A DNA stretch of 64,000 nucleotides. It comes from Leptothrix discophora (GTDB lineage: Bacteria; Pseudomonadota; Gammaproteobacteria; Burkholderiales; Burkholderiaceae_C). Position 1 is the stretch's first letter. Each line of letters starts with the position of its first letter. The position numbers and the translations under genes were made by a program. The DNA is taken from contig NZ_JAUZEE010000001.1 in assembly GCF_030705305.1 (NCBI RefSeq), positions 62,001-126,000 on the forward strand, written 5' to 3'. The notes under the pieces were generated by a model. That model did no database searches. It had not been told where the DNA came from and saw nothing but the letters and a program-made list of their open reading frames with translations. Shown one piece after another: positions 49,842 to 64,000 of the stretch.

Positions 49842-50885
49842 CTACCGTGCAGGATTCAACCGCCTGCCCAGGTACGCCACAACCGCTTCCACCTGCGCCC
49901 GCGTGAAGACCTCGCGCCAGGCCGGCATGGAGGTGCCGACCAGGCCGTCGCGGATGACCTGACGCAGGTGGCGCGGGGCCTTGGCGGCGGCGCTCAGGGC
50001 GGTCAGGTCGCGGGCCGGGGGTTCCATGAACTGGCCGATCCAGTTGCGGCCGGTCGCGTCGGCGCCGTGACAGAAGGCGCAGTTGGCCTGGAACAGCGCC
50101 TCGCCCTCGCGTTCGCGGCGGGTCAGTCCGGGGATGACCGGGGCGCGGTCGTGGCGGGCGTAGATGCTCGGCGTGGACACCGCGTCCAGCGGCTGGCCGC
50201 TGGCCGTGACCGCGTGCTGGCCGGGCTCGAAGCCTGGGCGCGGGTAGGACAGCGGGCGCGGTTGCCAGGCCGGGCCGGGGTCGTCCTGGCGGCTGCGGTC
50301 GTGGCAGCTGATGCAGGCCGACAGGAACAGCGCCCGGCCCGCACGCTGGCCGGCGTCGAGCGCCTCGACCGGCGCGTCCAGCCCGATGCGGCCGTCGGCA
50401 AAGGGGTAGGCCGCCGCGTGGCGGTCGTGGTCGGGCCAGCCGTTCTCGACGCTGTGATACCGGGATCGGCGGGCGCGCCGCTGCACGAACTCGCGCACCA
50501 CGTAGTCGGCCAGCACGGCCATGGCCTCGTCGTCCAGGCGCGCGCCGAACGAGGTCATCGCGCTGCCCGGCCGGCCGTCGCGCAGCGCGGCGATGACCCG
50601 CGCGGCGTCCAGCTCCGGCGGGGCGGTGAAGTCGCGTGGCGGCGGGTTCAGCAGCGTTGCGGCCAGCGTGCGGGCATCGCCGGCATAGCCGTGACAGAAG
50701 TAGCACAGGCCGTCGTAGAGCCGCCGGCCGCGCTCGTGGCGGGCCTCGGCGGCACGGGCCTCCGGTGCGCCGGCCTGATCGTGATCGCCCGGATCGACCG
50801 CCGTCCCCGCTTCGAGCGCCCCGGCCGGCGCGGCCATGGACCCGACCAGCAGGGCGGCACACAGGACCCGCGCGAGTCGCCACAT
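49842..50885 (-). CDS. Triheme c-type cytochrome
   Basis: 347 residues. Signal peptide (LCAALLVGSMAAPAGA). Three CxxCH sites: CYFCH near residue 62, CISCH near 196 and CAFCH near 274; each heme has a downstream Met (e.g. SMPAWREV) suggesting mono-heme cytochrome c modules with His/Met ligation. Two of the modules (LNPPPRDFTA... and FMEPPARDLTA...) are alike and may be duplicates. ATG 50885 overlaps the stop of the upstream cytochrome gene (ATGA); GTG 50888 is an alternative. Periplasmic electron carrier of the 49.8-64 kb locus. Confidence 0.88.
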   Translation of the reverse strand: MWRLARVLCAALLVGSMAAPAGALEAGTAVDPGDHDQAGAPEARAAEARHERGRRLYDGLCYFCHGYAGDARTLAATLLNPPPRDFTAPPELDAARVIAALRDGRPGSAMTSFGARLDDEAMAVLADYVVREFVQRRARRSRYHSVENGWPDHDRHAAAYPFADGRIGLDAPVEALDAGQRAGRALFLSACISCHDRSRQDDPGPAWQPRPLSYPRPGFEPGQHAVTASGQPLDAVSTPSIYARHDRAPVIPGLTRREREGEALFQANCAFCHGADATGRNWIGQFMEPPARDLTALSAAAKAPRHLRQVIRDGLVGTSMPAWREVFTRAQVEAVVAYLGRRLNPAR

Positions 50886-51730
50886 CACGGCGTGGCGGGG
50901 CGACGCGGGGCCTGGATGTAGCGCGTCAGCACGTGTTCGGCCAGGTCGGCGATCTGCTGCGCGTCCAGCACCTGCCGCCAGGCCGGCATCTCGGTGCCGA
51001 GACGGCCGTCGGCGATGGCCTGCCAGACCCGCGCGCGGTCCCAGCCGGACGGGTCGGGCAGGGCGAGGAAATCGCGCGGCACCGGGCGGATGAAGTAGGC
51101 CCGCGGCCCCTGGCCATCGCCGCGTTCGCCGTGGCAGGCCACGCAGTTGACGCGGTAGTAGGCCGCCCCGCGTGCCGCGTCGCCCTGCAGGCCATCCGGA
51201 TAGGGCCGGGGCGCGGCGCCGGCCGGCAGCGGGCCGGGCAGGGCATGGCCGCCGTGGGCGCGGGTGCCGGAGATCGCGTCGGCCGTGGCCGCAGCCGGTG
51301 ACGTGGCTGCTGCGGGTGCCTTGGCTGTTGCGGGTGCCGTGGCGGTCGGGCCGGGCTGGATGAAGGTGCGGTGCAGGTGGTCCGCCAGGGCCTCGATGTC
51401 GGCGCTCGACAGCTGGGTGCGCCAGCCGACCATCGCGGTGCCGGGCACGCCGAAGGTGACCGACCGGATGATGCGTTCGCGGTGGAGGTCGCGCCGCGCG
51501 GCGGCCGAGGTGAAGTCGCGCGGCGGCGTCGACAGCGCGGCGGTCGCGCGGCTGCGGCCGTTGCCCTGGTCACCGTGGCAGACCGAGCAGTAGTGGTGGT
51601 AGAGCACCGCGCCGTCGGCGCCGCTGTGCTGGCGCTCGCCGCGTTCGTTGCCCTGGGCGAGCGCCGCACCGCAGGCCAGGGCCAGCAGGGCGGCGGCGGT
51701 CGGTCGGGCAAGGCAGTTCGGCAAGCTCAT
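50885..51730 (-). CDS. Diheme c-type cytochrome
   Basis: 281 residues. Signal peptide (AAALLALACGAALAQ), a first cytochrome module with CSVCH (YHHYCSVCHGDQGNGRS) and a second with CVACH, joined by an Ala/Thr/Pro-rich linker near 135-160. Each module has PPRDF/VPRDFLA and a Met ligand region (GTAMVGW, GTEMPAW) as in the following triheme gene, so the pair are probably homologous. ATG 51730 is assigned from the signal peptide. Divergent from the NHL lipoprotein at 51836 across 105 bp. Confidence 0.87.
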   Translation of the reverse strand: MSLPNCLARPTAAALLALACGAALAQGNERGERQHSGADGAVLYHHYCSVCHGDQGNGRSRATAALSTPPRDFTSAAARRDLHRERIIRSVTFGVPGTAMVGWRTQLSSADIEALADHLHRTFIQPGPTATAPATAKAPAAATSPAAATADAISGTRAHGGHALPGPLPAGAAPRPYPDGLQGDAARGAAYYRVNCVACHGERGDGQGPRAYFIRPVPRDFLALPDPSGWDRARVWQAIADGRLGTEMPAWRQVLDAQQIADLAEHVLTRYIQAPRRPATP

Positions 51731-51835
51731 CGGCGCAACGGTGTCGGTCGGGATCCTCCCGGCAGCGCGAGCAAGTTGCCTGCCACGCCGGGACGGCGGC
51801 CCGGATTGGCACATGGCGTGCATGTCGGATGGCCG

Positions 51836-52990
51836 ATGACGCAGACCAAGACTCCGGACGAAGGGCCGTCGACCCCGACGCGGCGCACGCTGCTGGCGGG
51901 CCTGGTGACGGGTGGACTGGCGGCCGGGCTCGGCCCGCTGGCCGGCTGCATGCTGCCGCCCAAGGCCGCACCGGGCGCCGCGCTGGCGTCGCTGCCGGTG
52001 TTCCCGCCGCCACCGGACGAGCCGCGCTTCTACTTCGAGCGCAGCATCCGATCCAGCGCCGACATCCTGCCCGGCAGCCAGGCCAGCGAGCTGCGCCGCT
52101 TCGTGACCGGCGAGCAGGTGGTCGGCGAGCCGCTGGCCAAGCCCTATGCGGTGGCGGTCTGGCGTGGCCGCATCTACGTGTCCGACACGGTGGCGCGCCA
52201 CGTCCGCGTGTTCGACGTGGCCGCCGGCCAGCACCACCGCATCGGCGAGGACGACGGCGAGGGCCAGCTGATCAAGCCGATCGGGCTGGACGTCGATGCC
52301 GCCGGCCGGCTCTACGTGGCCGACATCGGCGCGCGCGCCGTCCTGGTCTACGGCCCGGACCGGCGCTTCCTGCGCCGCATCGGCGGCGCGGCCTGGTTCT
52401 CGCGCCTGACCAGCGTGACGGTCGACGCGGCCGGCGAGCGGGTCTACGCGGTCGACATCGGCGGCGTCGGCAGCGACCTGCACCGCGTGCGCGTGTTCGA
52501 CGCCCGCAGCGGCGCGCACCTGCAGGACATCGGACGGCGCGGCAGCGGCGAGGGCGAGTTCAACCTGCCGCGCGACATCGCGATCGGCCGCGACGGCCGG
52601 CTCTACGTCGTCGACGGCGGCAACTTCCGCATCGTCGTCTTCGATGCGCAGGGCCGGTTCCTGCGCCACTTCGGCAGCGTCGGCAAGCAGTACGGCCAGT
52701 TCGCCCGGCCCAAGGAAATCGCCACCGACCGCGACGGCAACGTCTACGTGGTCGACACCGCCTTCGGCAACTTCCAGATCTTCGACCCGGACGGCGCGCT
52801 GCTGCTGTTCGTCGGCGAGCGCTCCGAGCGCGACAGCCCGGCGCGCTACATGCTGCCCTCGGGCATCGCGGTCGACGAGGACGGCCGGGTCGTGCTGGTC
52901 GACCAGTGGTATCGCAAGGTCGATGTCTACCGGCCGGCCGCCCTGGCCGCCGGCACGGGCTTGCTGGCCGGTCCCGCCACCGCGCGCTGA
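51836..52990 (+). CDS. NHL-repeat beta-propeller lipoprotein
   Basis: 384 residues. N-terminus with twin arginines (PTRRTLLAGLVTGG) and lipobox LAGC near residue 38, so a lipoprotein, possibly Tat-exported. Six NHL blades are visible: KPYAVAVWRGRIYVSD, KPIGLDVDAAGRLYVAD, RLTSVTVDAAGERVYAVD, LPRDIAIGRDGRLYVVD, RPKEIATDRDGNVYVVD, LPSGIAVDEDGRVVLVD. A protein- or cytochrome-docking scaffold is one possibility. ATG 51836 is preferred over upstream in-frame codons because it opens the signal. First gene of the plus-strand cytochrome run. Confidence 0.87.
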   Translation: MTQTKTPDEGPSTPTRRTLLAGLVTGGLAAGLGPLAGCMLPPKAAPGAALASLPVFPPPPDEPRFYFERSIRSSADILPGSQASELRRFVTGEQVVGEPLAKPYAVAVWRGRIYVSDTVARHVRVFDVAAGQHHRIGEDDGEGQLIKPIGLDVDAAGRLYVADIGARAVLVYGPDRRFLRRIGGAAWFSRLTSVTVDAAGERVYAVDIGGVGSDLHRVRVFDARSGAHLQDIGRRGSGEGEFNLPRDIAIGRDGRLYVVDGGNFRIVVFDAQGRFLRHFGSVGKQYGQFARPKEIATDRDGNVYVVDTAFGNFQIFDPDGALLLFVGERSERDSPARYMLPSGIAVDEDGRVVLVDQWYRKVDVYRPAALAAGTGLLAGPATAR

Positions 52991-53338
52991 GCGTGCGCCG
53001 AGGCGGCCCCGAGGGCGGTCGACATTCCCGAACTCGGGAAGCGCGCTTCCTGATTGCGGGAGCCAGGGGCCGGGCTTTCCCGCCCTTGCACACGCCGCGC
53101 ACGAGCCCCGTTCGGGTCACCGTTCGGGGCCTGCGGCGGGTCATCCAGCCCTTGTCACGACCGGTCCCTGCGCAGGCTCGCCGCGCTGCAACACAAGTCA
53201 CCGTGCGTCACCGGCGGCACGCCAGGTTGGCTCGGTGGCGTGACGAATGGCACAGAAGCTGCTGACCGGAACCCCATGTCGCGCACTGGGATCGCCCCGA
53301 CCGGGCGAGGTCCGCGACAGGCCGTGCGGAGGCATGGA
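52991..53338. promoter_or_regulatory. Intergenic region before the tetraheme cytochrome gene
   Basis: 348 bp. It contains a 16-bp inverted repeat TTCCCGA-AC-TCGGGAA (53025-53040), two direct CCGTTCGGG copies (53108-53116, 53120-53128) and a possible sigma-54 -24/-12 element at 53248-53263 (TGGCAC, with GG-N10-GC spacing but a weak -12 box). A ribosome-binding site GGAGG lies at 53328-53332. Operator and promoter functions are inferred. Confidence 0.45.
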
Positions 53339-54268
53339 ATGCAGAACAACGCAGTCACGAACAGGAACCCGGCTCCAGCGCGCCTGGCCGCGCCGGTCTG
53401 GCGCCGCCTGCTGGCGGGCATCGGCGCGGTGCTGGTGCTGGCCACCGGCGTGATGCAGGCCGACAGCGTGTCGGCCGGCATCGCCGACACCCGCCACAAC
53501 CTGGGCTCCGGTCCGGGGCTGGCCGGTCGCAACAGCACGTCCGACACGGCCGAGGTCTGCGTGTTCTGCCACACGCCGCACGGTGCCGACGTCAACGCGC
53601 CCGCGCCGCTGTGGAACAAGCGCCTGGGCGCGGCGGGTGCGCCGGCCGGCGGAGGCACCTACACGACCTACGACACGCTGCAGACGCCGTCGCTGGACGG
53701 CACGGTCGCGCCGGTCGGATCGATCTCGATGGCCTGCCTGTCCTGCCACGACGGCACGCAGGCGATGGACAACGTCATCAACGCGCCCGGCTCGGGCGGC
53801 GTGGTGGCCGACGGCGGCGGCGTCGACGGCCGGGCCTACACCTGGAGCGGCAGCAGCGTCAGCGCGACCGGCCGCATCAGCGGCGGGCCGGGCCTGCTGG
53901 GCACCGACCTGTCCAACGACCACCCGATCGGCATCCAGTACTGCGGCGGCGGCCTGACGGGCAGCGGCACGACGGTCTCGGGCACCTGCAGCGACGGTGA
54001 CTTCCGCCAGCCGCAGACCCAGACCATCAACGGCAACCAGGTCTTCTGGGTCGATACCGGTGGTGCCGGCAAGCAGCGTACCGACCTGCCGCTGTACCAG
54101 CGCGCCACCGGCGGCCTGGGTCCGCTGGTCGAGTGCGCGAGCTGCCACGACCCGCACGTCTCGTCCGGCCAGGCCGGTCCGGCCGGCACCGGCCAGGTGG
54201 CGGGCGAGACCTTCCTGCGCATCTCCAACGCCTCCAGCGCGGTCTGCACGACCTGCCACGTCAAGTAA
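53339..54268 (+). CDS. Tetraheme c-type cytochrome
   Basis: 309 residues. Signal peptide (GIGAVLVLATGVMQADSVSA), then four CxxCH sites: CVFCHTPHG, CLSCHDG, CASCHDPH and CTTCH at the C-terminus. The arrangement HNLG..., CHTPHG, CHDPH resembles the doubled-CXXCH cytochromes of dissimilatory electron-transfer loci. A Cys pair (YCGGG...SGTCSDG) may form a disulfide. ATG 53339 follows the GGAGG ribosome-binding site. Eleven bp separate it from the parvulin gene. Confidence 0.88.
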   Translation: MQNNAVTNRNPAPARLAAPVWRRLLAGIGAVLVLATGVMQADSVSAGIADTRHNLGSGPGLAGRNSTSDTAEVCVFCHTPHGADVNAPAPLWNKRLGAAGAPAGGGTYTTYDTLQTPSLDGTVAPVGSISMACLSCHDGTQAMDNVINAPGSGGVVADGGGVDGRAYTWSGSSVSATGRISGGPGLLGTDLSNDHPIGIQYCGGGLTGSGTTVSGTCSDGDFRQPQTQTINGNQVFWVDTGGAGKQRTDLPLYQRATGGLGPLVECASCHDPHVSSGQAGPAGTGQVAGETFLRISNASSAVCTTCHVK

Positions 54269-54279
54269 GGACGGGCTGG

Positions 54280-55404
54280 ATGACGCGAGGCGTGGTGGGG
54301 ACAACGATGGGGTGCGTTCCGGGCAGGGGCTGGGGCTGGCGAGTGGCCGTGTCCGTGGTCAAGGCCGTGGCCATGGCCATGGCCATGCTCCTGCAGACCG
54401 CCGTCATGGCACCGGCCATGGCCGCAGAACCAGCGTCGCCTGCGGTGCCCGCCATGCCTTCGGCCGCGGCCATCGCCGCCGACGCCATCCCCTTCGCCCG
54501 CATCGGCGAGCAGGTCGTCACGCGTGGCGACTACCGCCGCGCGCTGGCCGTGGCGATGCGCCAGAAGTACTACCACGCCCAGCCGCCCGAGGCCGAGGTG
54601 GCCGCCTTCCAGCGCGAGATCGGCCAGGCCCTGGTCGACCGCCAGCTGCTGCTGGCCGAGGCGCGCCGGCGCGGCCTGCAGCCCGATGCGGCCAAGGTCG
54701 AGGCCCAGCTCGCGCCGCAGGCTCGTCGACTGAGCCAGTCGCCCGGCCTGGACGCCACCCACCGCGACCGCATGCTGGCGGCCTGGCGCTCGCAGTTCGA
54801 GGGCGATGACCTCATCAACCGCCTGCAGGCCGGCGTGCGTGCCTTCGCGCCGCCGGACGACGCCACGCTGCTGGCCTGGCATGCCCGCCACCGCGACCGC
54901 TTCATCGAGCCCGAACAGGTGCGCCTGAGCGTGATCCTGCTGAAGGTCGAGCCCAGCTCGAAGCAGGCCGTCTGGGACGCCGCCCATGCCGAGGCCGGCG
55001 AGCTGCACCGCCGCCTCGTGGCCGGTGCCGACTTCGCCGAGACGGCGCGGCTGCGGTCGGCCGATGCGAGCGCGGCCGACGGCGGCAGGCTCGACTACAT
55101 CCACCGCGGCATGCTGCCCGAGGCGCTGCACGGCGTCGTCGACGGCCTGCAGCCGGGTCAGCTCTCGGCCCCGGTGCAGGTGCTCGAAGGCGTGGCGCTG
55201 ATGCGCCTGGAAGACCGCCGGGCGGCGCGCGAGCGGCCGCTGGCGGAGGTTCGTGGTCGCGCGGTCGAGCTGTGGACCCGCGACGAGGGCGAGGCCCGCT
55301 GGCGCGCGCTGATCGAGCGGCTGCGCTCGGCCACGCCGGTCCAGATCGACGAGAGCGTCTATGCGCCGCTGCCGGCCCAGGAACCGAAGGCCCGGGCCGG
55401 CTGA
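54280..55404 (+). CDS. Parvulin-type peptidyl-prolyl isomerase, periplasmic
   Basis: 374 residues. N-terminal signal (AMAMAMLLQTAVMAPAMA) and a SurA/PrsA-like chaperone part: ARIGEQVVTRGDYRRAL, ALVDRQLLLAEARRRGL, then a rotamase domain EQVRLSVILLK, FAETARLRSADASAADGGRL, GMLPEALHGVVDGLQPGQLS and VLEGVALMRLEDR. It likely helps fold the barrel encoded next or its exported partners, as in porin-cytochrome loci. ATG 54280 has a GGACGGG ribosome-binding site 7 bp upstream. Confidence 0.85.
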   Translation: MTRGVVGTTMGCVPGRGWGWRVAVSVVKAVAMAMAMLLQTAVMAPAMAAEPASPAVPAMPSAAAIAADAIPFARIGEQVVTRGDYRRALAVAMRQKYYHAQPPEAEVAAFQREIGQALVDRQLLLAEARRRGLQPDAAKVEAQLAPQARRLSQSPGLDATHRDRMLAAWRSQFEGDDLINRLQAGVRAFAPPDDATLLAWHARHRDRFIEPEQVRLSVILLKVEPSSKQAVWDAAHAEAGELHRRLVAGADFAETARLRSADASAADGGRLDYIHRGMLPEALHGVVDGLQPGQLSAPVQVLEGVALMRLEDRRAARERPLAEVRGRAVELWTRDEGEARWRALIERLRSATPVQIDESVYAPLPAQEPKARAG

Positions 55405-55438
55405 GCGCCGGCCATCGGGGCGGACCAGGGTGTCACGG

Positions 55439-57631
55439 ATGTCCGCGTTGCACCGGGGCCCATCCAGAAGCGCGCCGGTGCGAGGGCGTGGTCGCGCGGT
55501 CGTGCGCCTGCTGCCGACCGCCGCCGCGGTCGCGCTGCTCATGCTGCGCGCCGGCCCCGTGCAGGCCGCAGCCTTCTCGCCCGGCCCGGTGATCGGTGCG
55601 GTCGACGATTCGACCGCCAGCGCGCTGGAAGCCGGCGTCGTGCGGACCGGCAGCGAGGCGCCGGCCGCGGGCGGCATCGTCTGGGGCTTCGCGCCGGTGC
55701 GCCTGGGCGGCAGCGTCTCGCTGGACCTGCGCCGCCAGCGCCTGGAGGACGGCCGCCGCAACACCCAGGGCCTGAGCTACGCCGAGCTGCAATGGGCCAC
55801 GCATGTCTGGGAGCCATGGTTCATCCAGTTGCGCGGGGGCTTTGGCGCACTGGTGGCGCGCGACGTCTCGCGCCAGTCCGACGGCTCGACCACCGCGACC
55901 AGCCATGCCGGCACCGGCAACGTCGCGGTGTCGGTGTTCCCGCAGAGCCGCTTCCCCTTCGAGCTGCGCGCCGACGTCAGCGACAGCCGGGTGCGTGGCG
56001 ACCACGTCGGCAGCGATTACCGCCTGCGCCGGCTCATCATCGACCAGAGCTGGCGGCCGCTCAACGGCACCGACAGCTACGCCGTCAACGTCGAGCACAG
56101 CACGCTGGAAACGCTCGACGGCACCTTCAGCGGCAGCACCGACCGGGTCGACAGCCTGCGCGCCCAGGCCCTGCTGCAGCGCGACGTCCACCGCTTCGAG
56201 TGGAGCGGCCAGCTCAGCCGCAACCTGCGCAGCGACAGCGAGGACCGCAGCCGCTACGCCAACCTCAGCGCCCGCCACGCCTGGCAGCCGCTGGGTGAGG
56301 TGCAGGTTGACACGCTGGCGACCTGGAACGAGGTGCGCCTGCATGCCGGCCTGCTGGCCAACCGGCAGGATACCGAGACCGACATCCGCCAGATCGCCAG
56401 CTTCGCGAGCTGGCGGCCGCTGCTGGCGCGCGGCGAGGACGGCACCGGCCTGTCGCCACTCCAGGTCACCGGCAGCCTGCGCCTGGTCGAGGCCGACACC
56501 GGCATCCGCAGCCTCAACGCCGGCCTGGGCAGCAGCAGCCGCTCGGGCCTGCGGGCGGCCAACGTCGCACTGGGCCTGACGCGCGAGCTGACGCCGTCGT
56601 GGCGGCTCTCGGGCGGCGTGTCCGGCACCCGCATCGAGACGGCGGTCAGCAGTGCCAGCGGCGCGGCCGCCACGCTCGCCACGCCGGACACGTCCAGCAC
56701 CGTGCAGACCGGCAACGTCACGCTGGGCTGGGCGCCGGTGGGCGTGCTGCTGGGGGGCTCGACGGGGGACGGCGCGGGTGCGGGTGTGGGTGTGGGTGCA
56801 GGTGCGGGAGCCTGGCGCTACACGCCCGGCGCATCGGCCAGCCTGGGTGCCAGCCGCAGCAGCGGCGTGGTGGCGACCCCTTCGGGCAACGCGCCGTCCA
56901 GCCGTCGCCTGACCCAGGGCGCGCAGTTCAACCACGGCCTGGGGCGCGACTGGCTGGGCGAGGACGGCGGCAGCCTGTCGGTGCAGCTCGGCCAGAGCCT
57001 GGGTGCCCTGCACGACAGCCAGAGCCGCAGCACCGTGCGGGCCCTGGCTCACACGCTGGGCCTGTACTGGCAGGGCGGCCTGAGCGGCGAGGGCAGCACG
57101 GCGTCCTACGGCTATGCCAGCGCGTCCTACAGCGACTCGCGCACGCTGGCGGGTGCGGGCGCGGGCGCGGGCACGGCCGGTGTCAGCAACGGTGCGGGCG
57201 GGCGCTTCCAGCTGGTCAACGTGCAGCTCAGCCGCCGCACCGGGCTGTCGCGCCACAGCAGCTGGAGCGGCAACCTGACCGCCCAGGGCAGCCGCAGCGA
57301 CACCACCCAGATCGACGTCTTCACCGGCCAGGTCCGCCTGGGCGGTCCGGGCTGGCTGCCCTTCTACAGCGGCTCGCTGAGCTACGAGCACCTGCGCGTG
57401 GCCGACGTGCCGCGGCTGCGCTACACGGCCACGCTGACGGTCAACAGCCAGTCCTTCGAGAGCCGCGCCGCCGGCGACATCGACGCGCTGCGCGAGCGCG
57501 TCACCGAGTCGATCGAGAACCGGCTGGACTACACCGTCGGCCAGCTTGAACTGCGCCTGCTCGCACGCGCGGCACGGGTCGACGGCCGGCCCGTCAGCCT
57601 GATCGGCGCACGCGCGCTGAGGCGCTTCTGA
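55439..57631 (+). CDS. Outer-membrane beta-barrel protein (MtrB-like porin candidate)
   Basis: 730 residues. Signal peptide (LLPTAAAVALLMLRAGPVQA). The rest is alternating amphipathic beta strands (GGSVSLDLRRQR, WFIQLRGGFGALVARDV, RLRRLIIDQSW, VNVEHSTLETL) and a C-terminal Phe (LRRF), as expected for BamA-inserted barrels. Size and position match the porins that sheathe multiheme conduits, but no MtrB N-terminal CxxC is seen. Two Gly/Ala-rich low-complexity stretches lie near 444-458 and 567-584. Start ATG 55439; the open frame begins at 55361, inside the parvulin gene. Confidence 0.8.
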   Translation: MSALHRGPSRSAPVRGRGRAVVRLLPTAAAVALLMLRAGPVQAAAFSPGPVIGAVDDSTASALEAGVVRTGSEAPAAGGIVWGFAPVRLGGSVSLDLRRQRLEDGRRNTQGLSYAELQWATHVWEPWFIQLRGGFGALVARDVSRQSDGSTTATSHAGTGNVAVSVFPQSRFPFELRADVSDSRVRGDHVGSDYRLRRLIIDQSWRPLNGTDSYAVNVEHSTLETLDGTFSGSTDRVDSLRAQALLQRDVHRFEWSGQLSRNLRSDSEDRSRYANLSARHAWQPLGEVQVDTLATWNEVRLHAGLLANRQDTETDIRQIASFASWRPLLARGEDGTGLSPLQVTGSLRLVEADTGIRSLNAGLGSSSRSGLRAANVALGLTRELTPSWRLSGGVSGTRIETAVSSASGAAATLATPDTSSTVQTGNVTLGWAPVGVLLGGSTGDGAGAGVGVGAGAGAWRYTPGASASLGASRSSGVVATPSGNAPSSRRLTQGAQFNHGLGRDWLGEDGGSLSVQLGQSLGALHDSQSRSTVRALAHTLGLYWQGGLSGEGSTASYGYASASYSDSRTLAGAGAGAGTAGVSNGAGGRFQLVNVQLSRRTGLSRHSSWSGNLTAQGSRSDTTQIDVFTGQVRLGGPGWLPFYSGSLSYEHLRVADVPRLRYTATLTVNSQSFESRAAGDIDALRERVTESIENRLDYTVGQLELRLLARAARVDGRPVSLIGARALRRF

Positions 57632-57681
57632 CCGCCGCCCATGACCCAGCCATCGTTCACCCACCCCCGCAGGAGCCCGTC

Positions 57682-58146
57682 TTGAAACCACCCCGCCACA
57701 GCCCGTCGCGCTGGCTGTCCCTGCTCGCACTGGCCCTGCTGTCGTTCTGGCTGGGCCTGGCCGGACCGGCCCGTGCCGAATACGGCGACATCGTCATCAA
57801 CAACTACTCGGACGCGGCCGGCATGCGGCCGGTGGTGTTCCCGCACTGGTTCCACCGCGTGCGCTTCCGCTGCAAGGTCTGCCATGCCGACCTCGGTTTC
57901 CAGTTCAAGGCCGGTGGCAACCAGATCAACATGCTCAAGATCATCGACGGCCAGTACTGCGGCGCCTGCCACAACGGCGAGGTCGCCTGGTCGGCCGAGA
58001 ACTGCAACCTGTGCCACGCCGGCAAGCCCGGCACGCCGACCCAGGTACACGAGAGCACGCTGCAGCGCTTTGGCGTCAACGTGCCGTCGTCGCCCGCTGC
58101 GGCGGCCTCAGGGGCCACGCCGGCCGCTCCCGCCAACAAACGCTAG
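57682..58146 (+). CDS. c7-type triheme cytochrome (copy A)
   Basis: 154 residues. Signal peptide (LLALALLSFWLGLAGPARA), then YGDIVINNYSD and the c7 core: FPHWFHRVRFRCKVCH, CGACH, CNLCH, three hemes with FPHxxH histidines as likely distal ligands. TTG start at 57682 with AGGAG ribosome-binding site. Nearly the same protein as copy A' at 61822. Periplasmic electron carrier; it follows the barrel gene by 50 bp. Confidence 0.88.
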   Translation: MKPPRHSPSRWLSLLALALLSFWLGLAGPARAEYGDIVINNYSDAAGMRPVVFPHWFHRVRFRCKVCHADLGFQFKAGGNQINMLKIIDGQYCGACHNGEVAWSAENCNLCHAGKPGTPTQVHESTLQRFGVNVPSSPAAAASGATPAAPANKR

Positions 58147-58156
58147 GTCGACCGCG

Positions 58157-59299
58157 ATGCAAGCCCACCTTCCACGCACCCTGACCCGCCTGGCCGGACT
58201 GGCCGCTTTCGCCTTGGCAGCGCTGTCCGTCCTGTTCACCGGCCCCGCCCAGGCCCAGGCGCCGGACCGCGCCTACGCCAAGCAGGTCTACGACGGCATC
58301 TGCGCCGGCTGCCATGCCAGCGGCGTGCTCAGCGCGCCCAAGTTCGGCCACGCGGCCGACTGGACCCCGCGCGCCAAGGCGGCCGGCGGTCTCGACGGGC
58401 TGGTCAGGAGCGCCACCGCCGGCACCGCCAAGGGCATGCCGCCCAAGGGCGGTCGGCCGGACCTGTCGCCCGAGCAGCTCAAGGCCGTCATCGCCTACAT
58501 GATGAGCGGCGGCAGCCAGCCGGCCGATGCGGCGGCGGCCAAGCCGGCGGCCGCACCGGCTGCGGCAGCGCCGGCCAAGCCGACGGCTGCGGCCAAGGCC
58601 GACGTGAAGGCTGACGTGAAGGCCGACGTGAAGGCGCCAACGGTCGCCGTTGCGGCGGCACCGGCCGCAGCCCCGGCACCGGCAGCAGCCGCCGCACCCG
58701 TCGCGGTCGCCGCAGCGGAACCGCCCGCCGCACCGCCGGCCAGCCGCGCGGTCGTGCCCACGCCGGCGCCGTCGCGCGAGGTCAATGCCTTCAACCGCCT
58801 GCTCAAGCCGGCCGCCAGGCACAACCGGCCGGCGGTGGAGTCGGGCATCCACGACCCGACCAACGACATGACGCTGCAGCTGCAGCCGCCGGCCACCGCC
58901 TTCGCCGACCTGCCCAAGAGCCCGGCGGGCAACCACGTCGACTGGGTCAAGGCGCTCGACGGCAAGGCCATCGCGCCGCGCTGGGACCGGCTCGATCCGG
59001 CCGCCAACGCGGTCGTGATGGACCTGAACATCGTGCGCGAGGTCAAGGGCTCCATGCCCGACGTGGTCTACCCGCACAAGCAGCACACCGAGTGGCTGGA
59101 CTGCTCGAACTGCCACCCGGCGATCTTCATGCCGCAGAAGGGCGCCAACCAGATCAGCATGGCGGCCATCCTGCTGGGCCAGAAGTGCGGCGTCTGCCAC
59201 GGCAAGGTCGCCTTCCCGGTGTCCGAATGCCGGCTCTGCCACTCGAAGAAGAAGGCCGAGCCGGCGCCCGCCAGCGCGGCGGTGGAGCGCAAGCCTTGA
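58157..59299 (+). CDS. Fused cytochrome c + c7-type triheme cytochrome (copy B)
   Basis: 380 residues. Signal peptide (ALAALSVLFTGPAQA), then a monoheme class I domain with CAGCH (DGICAGCHASGV) and AYMMSGG, an Ala/Pro/Lys-rich linker of about 100 residues including a repeated KADV (three 12-bp units at 58598-58633), and a C-terminal triheme module YPHKQHTEWLDCSNCH, CGVCH, CRLCH. The last 150 residues match copy B' at 61202. A flexible-linked wire between a cytochrome c domain and a c7 module is implied. ATG 58157. Confidence 0.88.
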   Translation: MQAHLPRTLTRLAGLAAFALAALSVLFTGPAQAQAPDRAYAKQVYDGICAGCHASGVLSAPKFGHAADWTPRAKAAGGLDGLVRSATAGTAKGMPPKGGRPDLSPEQLKAVIAYMMSGGSQPADAAAAKPAAAPAAAAPAKPTAAAKADVKADVKADVKAPTVAVAAAPAAAPAPAAAAAPVAVAAAEPPAAPPASRAVVPTPAPSREVNAFNRLLKPAARHNRPAVESGIHDPTNDMTLQLQPPATAFADLPKSPAGNHVDWVKALDGKAIAPRWDRLDPAANAVVMDLNIVREVKGSMPDVVYPHKQHTEWLDCSNCHPAIFMPQKGANQISMAAILLGQKCGVCHGKVAFPVSECRLCHSKKKAEPAPASAAVERKP

Positions 59300-60216
59300 A
59301 CCTGCCGACACGGCCACGCAGGCCCCGCGCCGGCTGGGGCTGGCAGCGCATGGCCGCAGCCTGCCTGCTGGCCGCCTCCGGCGTGCTGCCGGTGCGGGCC
59401 GAGGAAGACGCCGCGCTGCGCGCCCAGGTCGAGCAGAAGCTGCGCCTGGCCGGCATGCTGATCGCCGATTCGCCGGCGGCCCAGCGCATCGTCGCCAGCG
59501 GCCATGCCGAGGCCCGCGCGCACCTGGAGGAAGGCCGCGCCCACCAGGCCCAGGCCGCCGAGCTGCTGGCACGCGGCGAACTGGCGCAGGCCCGCAAGGC
59601 CATCGACGAGGCCTTGCGCCACCTCGGCAGCGCCCGCCGGCTGGTGCCCGACCCGGCCGCACGGCAGGCCCAGCTGCAGCGCCGCCACGGCGAGATGCTG
59701 GCCAGCACCGAGCGGCTGATCGAGGCCTGGCGCGGTCGCCAGTCCGAGTTGAGCGCGCAGGACAGCGCCGACCTCGCCAGTGCCACCGGCCTGCTCGACG
59801 GCTCGCGCCAGCAGGCCGCCCAGGGCCGGCATGAAGAGGCCATCGCCACGCTGGCGCGGGCCGAGAAGCTGCTGCTGGCCGGCTATTACCGCGGCGTCCA
59901 GAACGCCACGCTCGACTACACCCAGCGCGCCGACACGCCCGCCGAGGCCTACACGCTGGCGCTGACCCAGTACCGCGCGCTGGCCGACCTGCTGCCGCTG
60001 GCGGTGCGCGACCTCAAGCCCGCACCGGCCACGCTGGCGCTGGTCGAACGTTATGCGGCCGCCGCGTCGGCGCTCGAAGGCCAGGCGGTGCAGCGCCACC
60101 ATGCCGGCGACCTCGAGCAGGCCACCGCCGACCTGCGCAACGCCGTGCTGCAGGTCCAGCGCGCCCTGTCCACCGCCGGGCTCGCCACGCCTGCGCCCAC
60201 CGGAAGTTCGCCATGA
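59296..60216 (+). CDS. Exported helical protein of unknown function (copy C)
   Basis: About 306 residues. Signal-like stretch (AAACLLAASGVLPVRA), then only long amphipathic Ala/Leu/Arg/Glu helices (AQVEQKLRLAGMLIADSPAAQRI, EALRHLGSARRLVPD, LVERYAAAASALEGQAV), coiled-coil or TPR-like. No heme motif. TTG start overlaps the previous stop (TTGA); ATG 59350 is an alternative. It is paralogous to the next gene (shared xxIGILIxxSxAAQxI and LLDEAxR patterns). A scaffold for the cytochromes is a possible role, purely from context. Confidence 0.62.
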   Translation: MNLPTRPRRPRAGWGWQRMAAACLLAASGVLPVRAEEDAALRAQVEQKLRLAGMLIADSPAAQRIVASGHAEARAHLEEGRAHQAQAAELLARGELAQARKAIDEALRHLGSARRLVPDPAARQAQLQRRHGEMLASTERLIEAWRGRQSELSAQDSADLASATGLLDGSRQQAAQGRHEEAIATLARAEKLLLAGYYRGVQNATLDYTQRADTPAEAYTLALTQYRALADLLPLAVRDLKPAPATLALVERYAAAASALEGQAVQRHHAGDLEQATADLRNAVLQVQRALSTAGLATPAPTGSSP

Positions 60217-61193
60217 CGGCCCCGAAGTCCATTGCCTTGTCGACCCTCGCGCGGGTCCTGGCGTCGATCCTGGCGTCGATCCTTGCGTTTGCCTGGCCGG
60301 CACAGGCTCAGACCGTGAGCCCGCCGCCGCCGGCCTCCGCGCCACCGCCGCCCCGCTCGGCCCAGCCGCTCGATCCGGCCATGCTGGCGCGCCGGCTGCA
60401 GTCCATCGGCATCCTGATCGAGCGCTCGTCGGCGGCCCAGCAGATCGAGCGCAGCGGCGAGGCGACCGCGCGCGAGCGGCGCGACAACGCCCGGCTGATC
60501 CACCGCGAGGCCGGGCAGGCGCTGGACGCCGGCGAGGCCGAGCGCGCCGCCCGGCTGCTCGACGAGGCGGCCCGCGAGATGATGGCCGGCGTGCGCCTGG
60601 CCAAGCCCGAGCAGGTGGCCGGCGAGAAGGCCCGGCGCGACTTCGAGGCCCGGCTCGACAGCACCCGCGCCTTGCTCGCCGCGCAGCAGCGCATCACCGA
60701 CGAGAAGGCCGCCAGCGCGCCGTCCGCATCGAGCCGGCCGGTCACCCGCGAAGCCCGCGACGCGACCCGCGAGATCGAGCGCCGGCTGGCCGAGGCGCAG
60801 GCGCTGGCCCGCCAGGGCCGCATCGACGAGGCCCGCCCGCTGCTGGACCGCGCCTACCTGACCGCGCGGGTCTCGATCGAGTCGCTGCGGCGCGGTGACA
60901 CGCTGGTGCGCTCGCTGAACTTCGCCACGCCACGCGAGGAATACGACTACGAGATCGACCGCAACGACACCCACCGGATGCTGATCACCGTGCTGCTGGC
61001 CGACCGCAAGGATGCCCAGGGCGCGATGCCGGCGGGCATGCAGCCCTTCGTCGACAGGGCCGCCGCGCTGCGCACCGAGGCCGAGGCCCAGGCCAGGGCC
61101 GGCGATCACCTGGCGGCGATCCGCACGCTGGAGAACGCCACCCGCGAACTGGTGCGCGCCATCCGCGCCGGCGGCGTCTATATCCCTGGATAA
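60213..61193 (+). CDS. Exported helical protein of unknown function (copy C')
   Basis: 326 residues. Signal peptide (LASILASILAFAWPAQAQ), a Pro-rich stretch, then helical repeats (LARRLQSIGILIERSSAAQQIERSG, LLDEAAREMMAGVRLA, DATREIERRLAEAQALARQG) and a C-terminal DTHRMLITVLLAD...AIRTLENATRELVRAI. Same architecture as copy C. Start ATG overlaps its stop (ATGA), so translation is coupled. I do not recognise the family. Confidence 0.62.
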   Translation: MTAPKSIALSTLARVLASILASILAFAWPAQAQTVSPPPPASAPPPPRSAQPLDPAMLARRLQSIGILIERSSAAQQIERSGEATARERRDNARLIHREAGQALDAGEAERAARLLDEAAREMMAGVRLAKPEQVAGEKARRDFEARLDSTRALLAAQQRITDEKAASAPSASSRPVTREARDATREIERRLAEAQALARQGRIDEARPLLDRAYLTARVSIESLRRGDTLVRSLNFATPREEYDYEIDRNDTHRMLITVLLADRKDAQGAMPAGMQPFVDRAAALRTEAEAQARAGDHLAAIRTLENATRELVRAIRAGGVYIPG

Positions 61194-61201
61194 GCCCCCG
61201 C

Positions 61202-61825
61202 ATGGCACCAATGTGGCTTTCCTGCGCTGTGGCCTTGGCCCTGTGCCTCGGGCTGTTGCCGACACACGCCCAGACCCCCGCCGTGCGGGCGGCGGCGGTG
61301 GCGGCGTCGGCGCCCCGGGCGGCGTCGCCGTGGACGGCGCTGGCCGATGACGGGCTGCACGATCCGCGCAACCCGGCCATCGGCCTGCTGCAGCAGCCGG
61401 GCGAGGCACTCGCCGGCCTGCCGCGCGACACCGCCGGCAACCAGGTGCGCTGGGTCCAGGCGCTGGACCAGGGCGTGATCCAGCCGCGTGCCAACCTGAG
61501 CGCGGCCACGCCGGTGCGGGTGCGCGACCAGGACATCATCATTTCCAAGTACGGCTCGATGCCGGCGGTGCTGTTCCCGCATCGCCAGCACACGCTGTGG
61601 CTGGACTGCGCCAACTGCCACAACGGCCTGTTCAAGGACCAGGCCGGTGCCAACCGCTTCAGCATGCAGCGCATCCTCGACGGCGAGCAGTGCGGCGTCT
61701 GCCACGGTGCCGTGTCCTTCCCGCTGACCGAGTGCAACCGCTGCCACAGCGTGCCCAACGCGAGCCTGCGCGGCCGGCCCGATGTCGGCCCGGTGCGGCC
61801 GGTGGCGGAGGGCGGCCAGCGATGA
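61202..61825 (+). CDS. c7-type triheme cytochrome (copy B')
   Basis: 207 residues. Signal peptide (ALALCLGLLPTHAQ), an N-terminal region DGLHDPRNPAIGLLQQPGE matching the linker-proximal part of copy B, and the triheme core FPHRQHTLWLDCANCH, CGVCH, CNRCH. It lacks the monoheme domain and long linker of copy B. Stop overlaps the next ATG (ATGA). Confidence 0.88.
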   Translation: MAPMWLSCAVALALCLGLLPTHAQTPAVRAAAVAASAPRAASPWTALADDGLHDPRNPAIGLLQQPGEALAGLPRDTAGNQVRWVQALDQGVIQPRANLSAATPVRVRDQDIIISKYGSMPAVLFPHRQHTLWLDCANCHNGLFKDQAGANRFSMQRILDGEQCGVCHGAVSFPLTECNRCHSVPNASLRGRPDVGPVRPVAEGGQR

Positions 61826-62196
61826 GGCGCGCTGCCGTCCTCCTGCTCGCGCTGCTGCTGGCCGGCCTGGCGCCGCTCGCGCAGGCCGAGTACGGCGACG
61901 TCGTCATCAACCAGCGATCGGATGCCGAGGGCGTGCGTCCTGTCGTCTTCCCGCACTGGTTCCACCGCATCCGCTTCCGCTGCAAGGTCTGCCACCAGGA
62001 ACTCGGCTTCGAGATGCGGGCCGGTGCCAACCGCGTGCGCATGAACGACATCGTCGACGGCCAGTTCTGCGGTGCTTGCCACAACAACGTGGTGGCCTGG
62101 GGCCCCGACCGCTGCGACCTCTGCCACTCGGGCCTGAAGGGCCTTTCCAGCGGCATCCAGGGCGGCGCGCAGACTTCGGGGCCCGGGAGATGGTGA
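61822..62196 (+). CDS. c7-type triheme cytochrome (copy A')
   Basis: 124 residues. Signal peptide (VLLLALLLAGLAPLAQA), YGDVVINQRSD and core FPHWFHRIRFRCKVCH, CGACH, CDLCH. Close paralogue of copy A at 57682 but without its C-terminal extension. ATG 61822 overlaps the previous stop; its stop overlaps the next ATG (TGATG). Confidence 0.9.
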   Translation: MRRAAVLLLALLLAGLAPLAQAEYGDVVINQRSDAEGVRPVVFPHWFHRIRFRCKVCHQELGFEMRAGANRVRMNDIVDGQFCGACHNNVVAWGPDRCDLCHSGLKGLSSGIQGGAQTSGPGRW

Positions 62197-63329
62197 TGAC
62201 GACGCTGCAAGGCCCCGCACGACCCGCGCCGATCGGCCGCCGCGCCCTGCTGGCCGCACTGGCCGCACTGGCCGATCTGACCGCACTGGCCGATCTGGCC
62301 GCACTCACCGCCGGCCTCGCGGCGGCGGGCTGTTCCGGCCCGCCGACCCGTCCCGACGACGCGCTGCCGCCGGCCGCGCCGGGACCGGCCGTGGTGCGGC
62401 ACTGGCGCACGGTCAGCAGCGGGCAGGTCGGCGTGCCGGGCGGTCCGGCCGGGCTGCCGACCTTGCCGGGCGGGGCGGGCCTGCCCGGCCTGCCCGCACT
62501 GCCCGCACTGCCCGCACCGCCCGCACCGCCCGCACCGCCCGCACCGTTGGGCGGCGCGCCGGTCCGGCTGGTCGGCCCGGTCGCGCTGGCGCTGCGCGCG
62601 GGCGAGCTGCTGGTGGCCGATGCCGGGCTGGGGCGGCTGGTGCGCATCCCGCCCGACCTGCCGACCTGGACCGTGCTGCCGCCCATCGCCGGGCTGGCGA
62701 TCTCGCCGCGCACCGTGCTGGCGCTGGGGCCGGACCGCACGCTGTGGGCGCTCGACGGCCCGGGCCGGCAGCTGCTCAACCTGGGCCTGGGCGGCCAGCT
62801 GTTGCGGCGCGTGTCGCTGTCGGCCTGGGCTTCGCCATCCGGCTTCGCGCTGGCGGGCCTCGGCCTGCGCATCGTCGTGGCCGACGACAGCACCGGCCGC
62901 TGGGCCGAGCTGCGTGGCGCGAGCCTGGCCGAGCCGATGAACGATGCCTCGACAGGGGACGCCGCCGATGCCATCGCGGCCAGCGCTGACCGTGTCTACC
63001 TGCTGGAGCGTCGCCGTGCCCGCATCCGCGTCGTCGACCTGGTCGACGGCCGTGCGCACGGCACGCTGGGCGAGGGCGAGCTGATGCAGCCGGTGGCGAT
63101 CGCCGCCGATGCGCGTGGCCGCGTCGCGGTGATCGACGCGCAGGACCGCAGCGTGCGGCTCTACGTGCCGGGCCAGCCGGCGCTGCACCTGCTGCCGGCC
63201 GAGCTGCGGGTGCAGCAGCCCGCCGCGCTGGCGATGGACGATGGCTGGCTGGCGGTGGCCGACCGGGTCGGCGGCGTGGTGCAGCTGTTCCGCATCGGCG
63301 AAGGCCGTGCCGCCGGGGGCGCGCGGTGA
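62196..63329 (+). CDS. NHL-type propeller lipoprotein with Pro/Ala repeat
   Basis: About 377 residues. N-terminus with GRRALLAAL and lipobox AAGC near residue 46; the signal region itself has a repeated L-A/T-A-L-A-D pattern. A Gly/Pro/Ala-rich segment coded by 9-bp units (62481-62543) precedes propeller blades: GPVALALRAGELLVADAGL, PVAIAADARGRVAVIDAQ, QPAALAMDDGWLAVADR. More diverged from the NHL consensus than the protein at 51836. ATG 62196 with TGATG coupling is chosen; ATG 62190 is possible. Confidence 0.78.
   Translation: MTTLQGPARPAPIGRRALLAALAALADLTALADLAALTAGLAAAGCSGPPTRPDDALPPAAPGPAVVRHWRTVSSGQVGVPGGPAGLPTLPGGAGLPGLPALPALPAPPAPPAPPAPLGGAPVRLVGPVALALRAGELLVADAGLGRLVRIPPDLPTWTVLPPIAGLAISPRTVLALGPDRTLWALDGPGRQLLNLGLGGQLLRRVSLSAWASPSGFALAGLGLRIVVADDSTGRWAELRGASLAEPMNDASTGDAADAIAASADRVYLLERRRARIRVVDLVDGRAHGTLGEGELMQPVAIAADARGRVAVIDAQDRSVRLYVPGQPALHLLPAELRVQQPAALAMDDGWLAVADRVGGVVQLFRIGEGRAAGGAR
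62481..62543 (+). repeat. 9-bp tandem repeat in the propeller lipoprotein gene
   Basis: Seven units of C[T/C]GCCCG[G/C][C/A] coding repeated Leu/Pro-Pro-Ala/Gly, in frame, forming a Pro-rich spacer between the lipid anchor and the propeller. Confidence 0.85.
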
Positions 63330-64000
63330 ATCGCTCACGGCATGCGGTGAGCGCCGCCTGGATCAGCCTGCTGGCCTGCTGGCTGGCGCTCCAGCTGACC
63401 GGCTGCGCCAGCGAGCCCGTGCGCGGCACCTGGCGTCCGGACATGGACGGCCTGCCCGGTCCGGACGAGGCCGCCGCGCTGGTCTGGCCGGCCCGGCCGG
63501 AGCCGGCACGTTATGCCTGGGCCGGGCGCCTGACCGGCGAGCCCGAGCTGCACCGGCCCGAGCCGGCCGGCGGTGCCAGCCTGTGGCGGCGGGTCGGCCG
63601 CTGGATCGCCGGGCTGGACGGCGCCGACGAGGCGCCGCTGCAGTTGCAGCGGCCGAGCGCTGTCAGCGGCGATGCACACGGCCGCATCTACGTCAGCGAC
63701 GCGGCGCGGCGTGCCGTCTTCGTCTTCGACCTGGCCGGCGGCACGCTGGCGCTGTGGGAGCGGGCCGGGCCGGGCCTGAACTGGGTCTCGCCGGTGGGGC
63801 TGGCGCCTGGACCGGACGGCACGCTGGACGTGGCCGATGCCGAGCTGGGCTGGGTCGTCCGCCTGGATGCGCGGGGCGAGCCGCGCGGCCAGATCGGCCG
63901 CGGCTTGCTTCAGCGCCCGACCGGGCTGGCGCGTGACCCCGCCAGCGGCCGGCTCTACGTCGCCGACACGCGGGCCCACGACATCAAGGTCTTCGATGCG
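63326..64000 (+). CDS. NHL-repeat lipoprotein, partial (runs off window end)
   Basis: 225 codons visible. GTG start overlaps the previous stop (GTGA). Signal peptide with lipobox LTGC near residue 26, then the propeller: LQRPSAVSGDAHGRIYVSDAA, SPVGLAPGPDGTLDVADAEL, RPTGLARDPASGRLYVADTR, still open at 64000. Third NHL lipoprotein of the locus, closest in plan to the one at 51836. Confidence 0.85.
   Translation, partial: MNRSRHAVSAAWISLLACWLALQLTGCASEPVRGTWRPDMDGLPGPDEAAALVWPARPEPARYAWAGRLTGEPELHRPEPAGGASLWRRVGRWIAGLDGADEAPLQLQRPSAVSGDAHGRIYVSDAARRAVFVFDLAGGTLALWERAGPGLNWVSPVGLAPGPDGTLDVADAELGWVVRLDARGEPRGQIGRGLLQRPTGLARDPASGRLYVADTRAHDIKVFDA

Follow-up and report, generated by a model that had tools for sequence, protein, structure and literature searches.

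Undecaheme electron transfer (Uet) clusters have been described from several groups of bacteria. The Tenderiales complex, a porin-multiheme cytochrome (MHC) complex, comprises the extracellular tetraheme UetA, the parvulin UetB, the barrel UetC, the trihemes UetDEG, the NHL proteins UetHI and the undecaheme UetJ; Uet also occurs in six Gallionella, with the barrel in four of the six (PMC10734462). The cluster has been named uetABCDEFGHIJ (PMC12575090), and UetJ and its porin were reported in 2026 from Group 2 (mobilis-type) Leptothrix (PMC13386937). In Candidatus (Ca.) Tenderia, three triheme genes, apparently cotranscribed with a TPR gene, were among the most highly expressed on the cathode, and the undecaheme gene showed no differential expression between two potentials (PMC5371394). 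Here we analyze a locus of this kind at the end of a 64,000-nucleotide stretch of Leptothrix discophora (contig NZ_JAUZEE010000001.1, positions 62,001 to 126,000, termed the window; the contig is C11 in our numbering). We consider it rather probable that the locus is most of a Uet operon of a betaproteobacterium of the Sphaerotilus/Leptothrix group and that its most likely function is to build and charge a cytochrome nanowire of the OmcE type. Beyond what the Uet descriptions cited here say, the sequences argue that Uet is a nanowire system of this type and brings its own candidate anchor.

Probable identity as a Uet operon

Every component type named for UetA–E and UetG–J (PMC10734462) was present at the locus in letter order, and UetF was assigned by way of a TPR gene that lies between triheme genes in Ca. 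Tenderia (PMC5371394). The cluster itself is already known and already reported in this bacterial group. A sequence-only reading of the window had taken it to be undescribed for the group, which does not hold because its gene set matches Uet in Tenderiales and Gallionella (PMC10734462) and in mobilis-type Leptothrix (PMC13386937). From its likeness to S. mobilis, the genome studied here would itself belong to Group 2 Leptothrix. The features are as follows (window coordinates unless stated).

49842..50888, minus strand: divergent c-type cytochrome, 3 CxxCH, cbb3-subunit-III-like domains (PF13442, 1e-30)
50885..51730, minus strand: divergent c-type cytochrome, 2 CxxCH (PF13442, 4.6e-25)
51836..52990, plus strand: NHL1, NHL beta-propeller, lipobox LAGC (NHL, 8.8e-22)
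53248..53262, plus strand: sigma-54 -24/-12 type site TGGCACAGAAGCTGC, 91 bp upstream of uetA
53339..54268, plus strand: UetA, tetraheme cytochrome of the OmcE family (4 CxxCH; 7tfs profile E 2e-41), candidate filament subunit
54280..55404, plus strand: UetB, parvulin-type peptidyl-prolyl isomerase (PF00639, 3.5e-15), start codon uncertain
55439..57631, plus strand: UetC, predicted outer-membrane beta-barrel of 730 aa without plug domain (28 long strands in the model)
57682..58146, plus strand: UetD-type triheme c7 cytochrome (TIGR04257, 6.3e-18)
58157..59299, plus strand: UetE-type c + c7 protein, its monoheme c domain at the N-terminus, 4 CxxCH (motif count, profile match)
59350..60216, plus strand: UetF-like secreted protein A, without heme motif
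60213..61193, plus strand: UetF-like secreted protein B, without heme motif, weak TPR_4 match
61202..61825, plus strand: triheme c7 cytochrome, UetG-type
61822..62196, plus strand: extra triheme c7 cytochrome beyond the named UetDEG
62193..63329, plus strand: NHL2, NHL-type propeller, UetH-like (NHL, 8.4e-5), with only AAGC at the lipobox
63326..64000, running past the window edge to 64480, plus strand: UetI-like NHL propeller lipoprotein (NHL, 2.2e-20), clear lipobox
64477-67083 in extended coordinates (C11:126477-129083): uetJ, 868 aa, 11 CxxCH (motif count)
67080-68147 in extended coordinates: resB, directly after uetJ
68144-69019 in extended coordinates: ccsA, directly after resB

The gene order thus runs from the divergent three- and two-heme cytochromes through propeller, tetraheme, parvulin, barrel, c7, c + c7, two non-heme proteins, c7, c7, propeller, propeller and 11-heme cytochrome to ResB and CcsA. 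All parts that the sequence-only reading had listed (seven cytochromes, 22 CxxCH sites, a 730-residue barrel, a parvulin and three propellers) were recovered by open reading frame (ORF), motif and profile scans, and its view of a porin-cytochrome electron-transfer locus is borne out as a predicted outer-membrane locus. The seven cytochrome ORFs of the window carry 3 + 2 + 4 + 3 + 4 + 3 + 3 = 22 CxxCH. A DNA pattern scan of C11:111842-126000 likewise gave 22 sites, compared with about 0.55 from a reversed-pattern control (94 + 88 matches in the 4.65 Mb genome of 31 contigs). Four c7 domains of the cluster scored above the TIGR04257 cut-off, and the lipobox was clear in two of the three propellers. 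That reading had also found no deca- or larger heme protein, which is literally correct inside the window but reflects an edge effect: the window ends inside the operon, within the third propeller, and uetJ starts 477 bases beyond the edge. The premise of a missing large cytochrome therefore fails, as the sequence past position 64000 holds the undecaheme cytochrome together with ResB and CcsA.

Homologues of both divergent cytochromes stand beside the cluster at three other loci (L015, L016 and L017), and NHL1 has homologues at these and at L019. Downstream of the cluster, this genome encodes a histidine kinase and a sigma-54-type response regulator. As side observations, a HipA_C-domain protein (L002:6644-8032, PF07804, 2e-19) and an ApbE flavin transferase (L002:17025-18143, PF02424, 4.5e-55) lie downstream of ccsA.

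Relationship of UetA and UetJ to OmcE

Compared with all PDB chain sequences, UetA matched 9yuq (E 1.6e-24), an entry titled 'putative multiheme cytochrome c', and OmcE, 7tfs (E 9.6e-19); the third match (E 0.29) is not meaningful. A profile of 35 UetA sequences reached 2e-41 with 7tfs and 1e-40 with 9yuq, and only 0.0096 with OmcS. By these matches, UetA is homologous to OmcE, the filament cytochrome of Geobacter. The same relationship was seen at the N-terminus of the undecaheme protein, where residues 28-254 of UetJ matched 7tfs (E 6.8e-26) and 9yuq (E 8.6e-16). By a lenient pattern (CxxCHxxH, CxxCH, an H-P type motif, CxxCHxxH, CxxCH and, up to 40 residues ahead of the first heme, any histidine), 33 of the 35 UetA and all 89 UetJ N-termini have four CxxCH together with four additional histidines; one of the two UetA misses begins at a locus edge and the other is divergent. 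In a FastTree phylogeny of 35 UetA and 90 UetJ N-termini, the two groups split without exception (local support 0.999). We thus take the first four-heme domain of UetJ to be an old paralogue of UetA, with a duplication that would predate the spread of the cluster. Repeats inside uetA, among them the heme motifs and some short families of two copies, were not used as evidence.

Relatives were collected by scanning genome contigs with an alignment of the 11-heme protein, and the best 80 of 566 confirmed stretches were kept. Fifty genomes of these 80 loci were searched whole with the UetA alignment; the match in 50 of 50 is trivial, as UetJ itself matches. A separate short OmcE-like frame (250-660 aa) was found in at least 47 of the 50, and in at least 36 of the 50 such a frame (up to 660 aa) lies 1.9-11.8 kb upstream of UetJ on the same contig and strand. 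The 14 genomes without a close upstream frame include split contigs, copies elsewhere and three without a separate frame of at least 250 aa. Among kin, the distribution of the OmcE-like protein is patchy: of 13 genomes in the genus, 3 carry it (our own among them), as do 1 of 47 genomes from the family's other genera and 1 of 40 from the order's other families. Two OmcE-like proteins (L017:4378-5304 and L019:9321-10235) carry a fifth CxxCH (CLACH) between the second heme and the NDHP motif; both adjoin an NHL propeller and are possible pentaheme filament subunits.

Neither the papers naming Uet that were consulted nor the literature hits listed state a relation between UetA and OmcE, which is no proof that the relation is unpublished. 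The name 'OmcE' is absent from PMC10734462 and PMC13386937 and appears a single time in PMC12575090, within a reference title; PMC13264449 mentions it once, as a nanowire type outside its investigation.

The predicted barrel UetC

An AlphaFold2 model of UetC, built with 47 sequences, showed a confidently predicted all-beta barrel (predicted local distance difference test, pLDDT, 85.7; predicted template modeling score, pTM, 0.71) with 28 strands of at least 10 residues and without a plug domain. No Pfam or NCBIfam match was obtained for UetC at E 0.01. The best 50 of 797 Foldseek rows were mainly TonB-dependent transporters with template modeling (TM) scores of 0.15-0.37 and identities of 8-12%; none of these rows is a close match, and they were taken as a generic barrel likeness. 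The large open barrel of the model fits the passage or holding of some cytochrome.

Distribution and gene order among relatives

By their records, the 80 UetJ-like loci span Beta-, Gamma- and Alphaproteobacteria as well as Magnetococcales. Gene maps were drawn with profiles from the window proteins, iterated on these loci. The order of the cluster is conserved in two genomes of the same genus (G007 and G009) and is kept in G039 and G070, where some components are missing or lie beyond contig ends. Of 56 loci whose sequence extends 8.5 kb or more ahead of the 11-heme ORF, 39 have the full set of parvulin, barrel, at least three c7 proteins, UetF-like protein and propeller upstream of UetJ. ResB was found at 53 and both ResB and CcsA at 46 of the 69 loci with at least 2.5 kb downstream. 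The heme count of UetJ homologues is nearly invariant, with 11 CxxCH in 88 of 89 frames having at least nine. A UetE-type frame with four CxxCH is present at 19 of the 56 loci with enough upstream sequence and at 20 of 80 overall (L021-L100), 17 of these betaproteobacterial by record; the monoheme c domain itself was identified in the window's own protein.

Two further observations concern single loci. Nine of them (L030, L040, L052, L060, L069, L072, L074, L084 and L087) hold two UetJ-like 11-heme frames, some with propellers between. A complete-looking cluster occurs in the metagenome-assembled genome 'MnB_19 Mn-Betaproteobacteria-3_2' (L055, VEPL01000029.1), which, from its name, presumably originated in a Mn-oxidizing enrichment.

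Regulation of the cluster

A TGGCAC-N5-nTGC site precedes uetA by 91 bp in both the window and S. mobilis (L015) and by 98 bp in G009 (L016). Sites of this sigma-54 type scoring 9-10 out of 10 were detected in 21 of 52 regions upstream of OmcE-like genes at other loci, compared with 0.32 expected from shuffles; at a score of at least 8, the count was 32 of 52 against 2.55 expected. These 52 regions are related sequences and not independent, and one of them (L101) is S. mobilis again. Of the 32 sites, 29 lie 64-133 bp before the presumed start. A kinase and a sigma-54-type regulator both follow UetJ within 6 kb at 5 of the 46 loci with at least 8 kb downstream, and anywhere after it in the available stretch at 11 of 80. 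No promoter emerged from a scan for sigma-70 promoters and terminators around uetA, which returned a single weak minus-strand hairpin. A second TGGCAC-N5-nTGC site (window 51807-51821) lies 29 bp before NHL1 and is probably too near its start codon to serve that gene.

Proposed mechanism, alternatives and direction of electron flow

We infer polymerization of UetA, the role of UetJ, the path through UetC and the direction of flow as follows. UetA would be exported and polymerize outside the cell into an OmcE-like filament, assisted by UetB and the propellers. UetJ, in whose N-terminal domain the heme motifs and additional histidines of the UetA subunit are retained, may dock at the base or end of the filament, or cap it, and would link the filament to the c7 proteins of the periplasm by a path through or alongside UetC. 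The predicted 28-strand barrel would let the electron chain cross the outer membrane, the c7 proteins and the c + c7 fusion could relay electrons in the periplasm, and ResB/CcsA might supply extra heme attachment. In this aerobe, electrons would probably flow inward: Fe(II) or some other donor outside the cell would supply the periplasmic c cytochromes and the cbb3 oxidase, to which the divergent c cytochromes may pass electrons on. In its most far-reaching form the proposal is tentative, and we would not yet call it likely: Uet would be a sigma-54-controlled OmcE-type nanowire machine widespread in Pseudomonadota, and UetJ a purpose-built anchor that mimics a filament subunit and plugs into the UetA polymer, the wire being joined via the 28-strand barrel to c7 carriers.

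Several points weigh against the nanowire. Filament, heme content, location and electron transfer are predictions, and the likeness to OmcE is one of sequence, since the AlphaFold model of UetA is poor (pLDDT 46) and its Foldseek search gave three matches, none better than E 5.8; moreover, homology to OmcE does not prove polymerization. The identity as Uet was set by component types, order and published descriptions. The full set is absent at 17 of the 56 loci, which are partial or differently built, and seven of these (L040, L047, L061, L063, L066, L083 and L084) lack any recognized cluster gene upstream. Likewise, 20 of the 52 upstream regions have a site scoring at most 7 or none, and the adjacent sigma-54-type regulator carries GAFTSA. 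The canonical motif of sigma-54 activators is GAFTGA.

The same parts could instead form a compact porin-cytochrome conduit without filaments, in which UetJ would thread UetC in the manner of MtrA in MtrB, with UetA as the monomeric terminal cytochrome outside the cell. The UetC barrel is large and has no plug, and the excerpts of PMC10734462, with their extracellular tetraheme and porin-MHC complex, do not mention filaments for Uet. However, most of UetA aligns with a subunit that forms filaments, the heme ligands being conserved, and the UetJ N-terminus repeats the UetA subunit, as expected of a docking part. Although neither point is decisive, we regard such a conduit as unlikely. A trans-envelope wire made of c7 modules alone, close to what the sequence-only reading proposed (triheme c7 proteins, a fused c + c7 protein and a tetraheme), could draw on the four c7 domains of the cluster. 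It is very improbable given the 11-heme UetJ in the same operon, with its almost constant heme number, and c7 proteins that look like periplasmic carriers; the tetraheme UetA is the better wire candidate.

As for direction, electron uptake is probable, and we hold this with moderate confidence. No NapC/NirT/CymA-type protein was matched in this genome (0 of 1; other inner-membrane exits were not searched for), and no MtoA/DmsE-type decaheme exceeded the TIGR03508 cut-off (0 of 1; three weaker matches, the best with 44.6 versus 192.2 bits), so we lean towards uptake. This direction is further supported by the cbb3 oxidase subunit CcoN at C11:27213-28574 and by the high expression of the Ca. Tenderia triheme genes on the cathode. 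On the other hand, the flow may be outward or reversible, because an undecaheme has been noted in the Mn-reducing Ca. Dechloromonas occultata (PMC13264449). An outward system, in which electrons from respiration are passed to Mn(III)/Fe(III) or to electrodes, would agree with the origin of OmcE from a metal reducer and with UetJ-like proteins in Aromatoleum and Azoarcus. Yet the loci of these two genera show little of the cluster beside UetJ, the inner-membrane and oxidase findings above speak for uptake, and Ca. Tenderia takes electrons from a cathode (PMC5371394), which makes outward flow somewhat unlikely in our view.

If Uet indeed makes OmcE-type filaments, one conserved operon would provide subunit, candidate anchor, pore, chaperone and carriers in culturable metal-depositing bacteria, the genetics of biocathodes and Fe(II) oxidation would be tied to nanowire biology, and the genes would be obvious candidates for knock-outs. 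The anchor model, if true, would explain in terms of defined genes how such a filament attaches to its cell. To our knowledge, the secretion, anchoring and charging of cytochrome filaments are an open question. Their role in respiration is disputed (PMC11077965).

Comparison with known systems

The locus resembles MtrAB, MtoAB and PioAB in combining a barrel with multiheme cytochromes, but its barrel has no Pfam match and its UetJ has 11 hemes with an OmcE-like start. Pfam includes an MtrB/PioB model. Identity with these systems was rejected on the grounds that no DmsE/MtoA-type decaheme exceeded the cut-off and that the barrel fell into 0 Pfam families at E 0.01; MtrB had no entry among the best 50 of the 797 Foldseek rows for UetC. 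PCC3 of iron oxidizers is likewise a predicted porin-cytochrome cluster in the same bacterial group (PMC5566968, PMC13386937), and its periplasmic cytochrome in Gallionellaceae has 21-27 hemes (PMC10734462). Here, the largest cytochrome of the cluster has 11 CxxCH, and no cytochrome of at least 20 hemes stands beside the barrel, so that the locus was not assigned to PCC3. Separately, other multiheme-like frames, of 801 and 1001 aa, lie at G000:C31:124104-126817; they weakly resemble DmsE and c7 and are possibly the PCC3 locus reported for the group. The four-gene operon of SEEP-SRB1 and Desulfuromonadales (propeller, 16-heme, 26-heme and parvulin) shares propeller, parvulin and multiheme cytochromes with our locus (PMC5539420). 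It was set aside as its heme numbers differ and the excerpts of that paper describe no OmcE-like protein or dedicated porin.

The OmcE filament of Geobacter sulfurreducens (7tfs), in which a heme is ligated across subunits (PMC12954529), is homologous to UetA and to the N-terminal domain of UetJ, which share its heme motifs and further histidines. UetA differs in being longer (309-aa precursor versus the 232-residue entry sequence), and the filament is known for OmcE whereas for UetA it is predicted. With Uet of Ca. Tenderia/Tenderiales and Gallionella, the locus shares the tetraheme, the parvulin, the barrel, triheme c7 proteins, NHL propellers, the undecaheme and a TPR-like gene among the trihemes. 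Features recorded here that may set it apart are one more c7 protein (the fourth), the monoheme c domain added to the UetE-type protein, the pair of UetF-like proteins, an extra upstream propeller, the divergent 2- and 3-heme cytochromes and the downstream kinase and sigma-54-type regulator.

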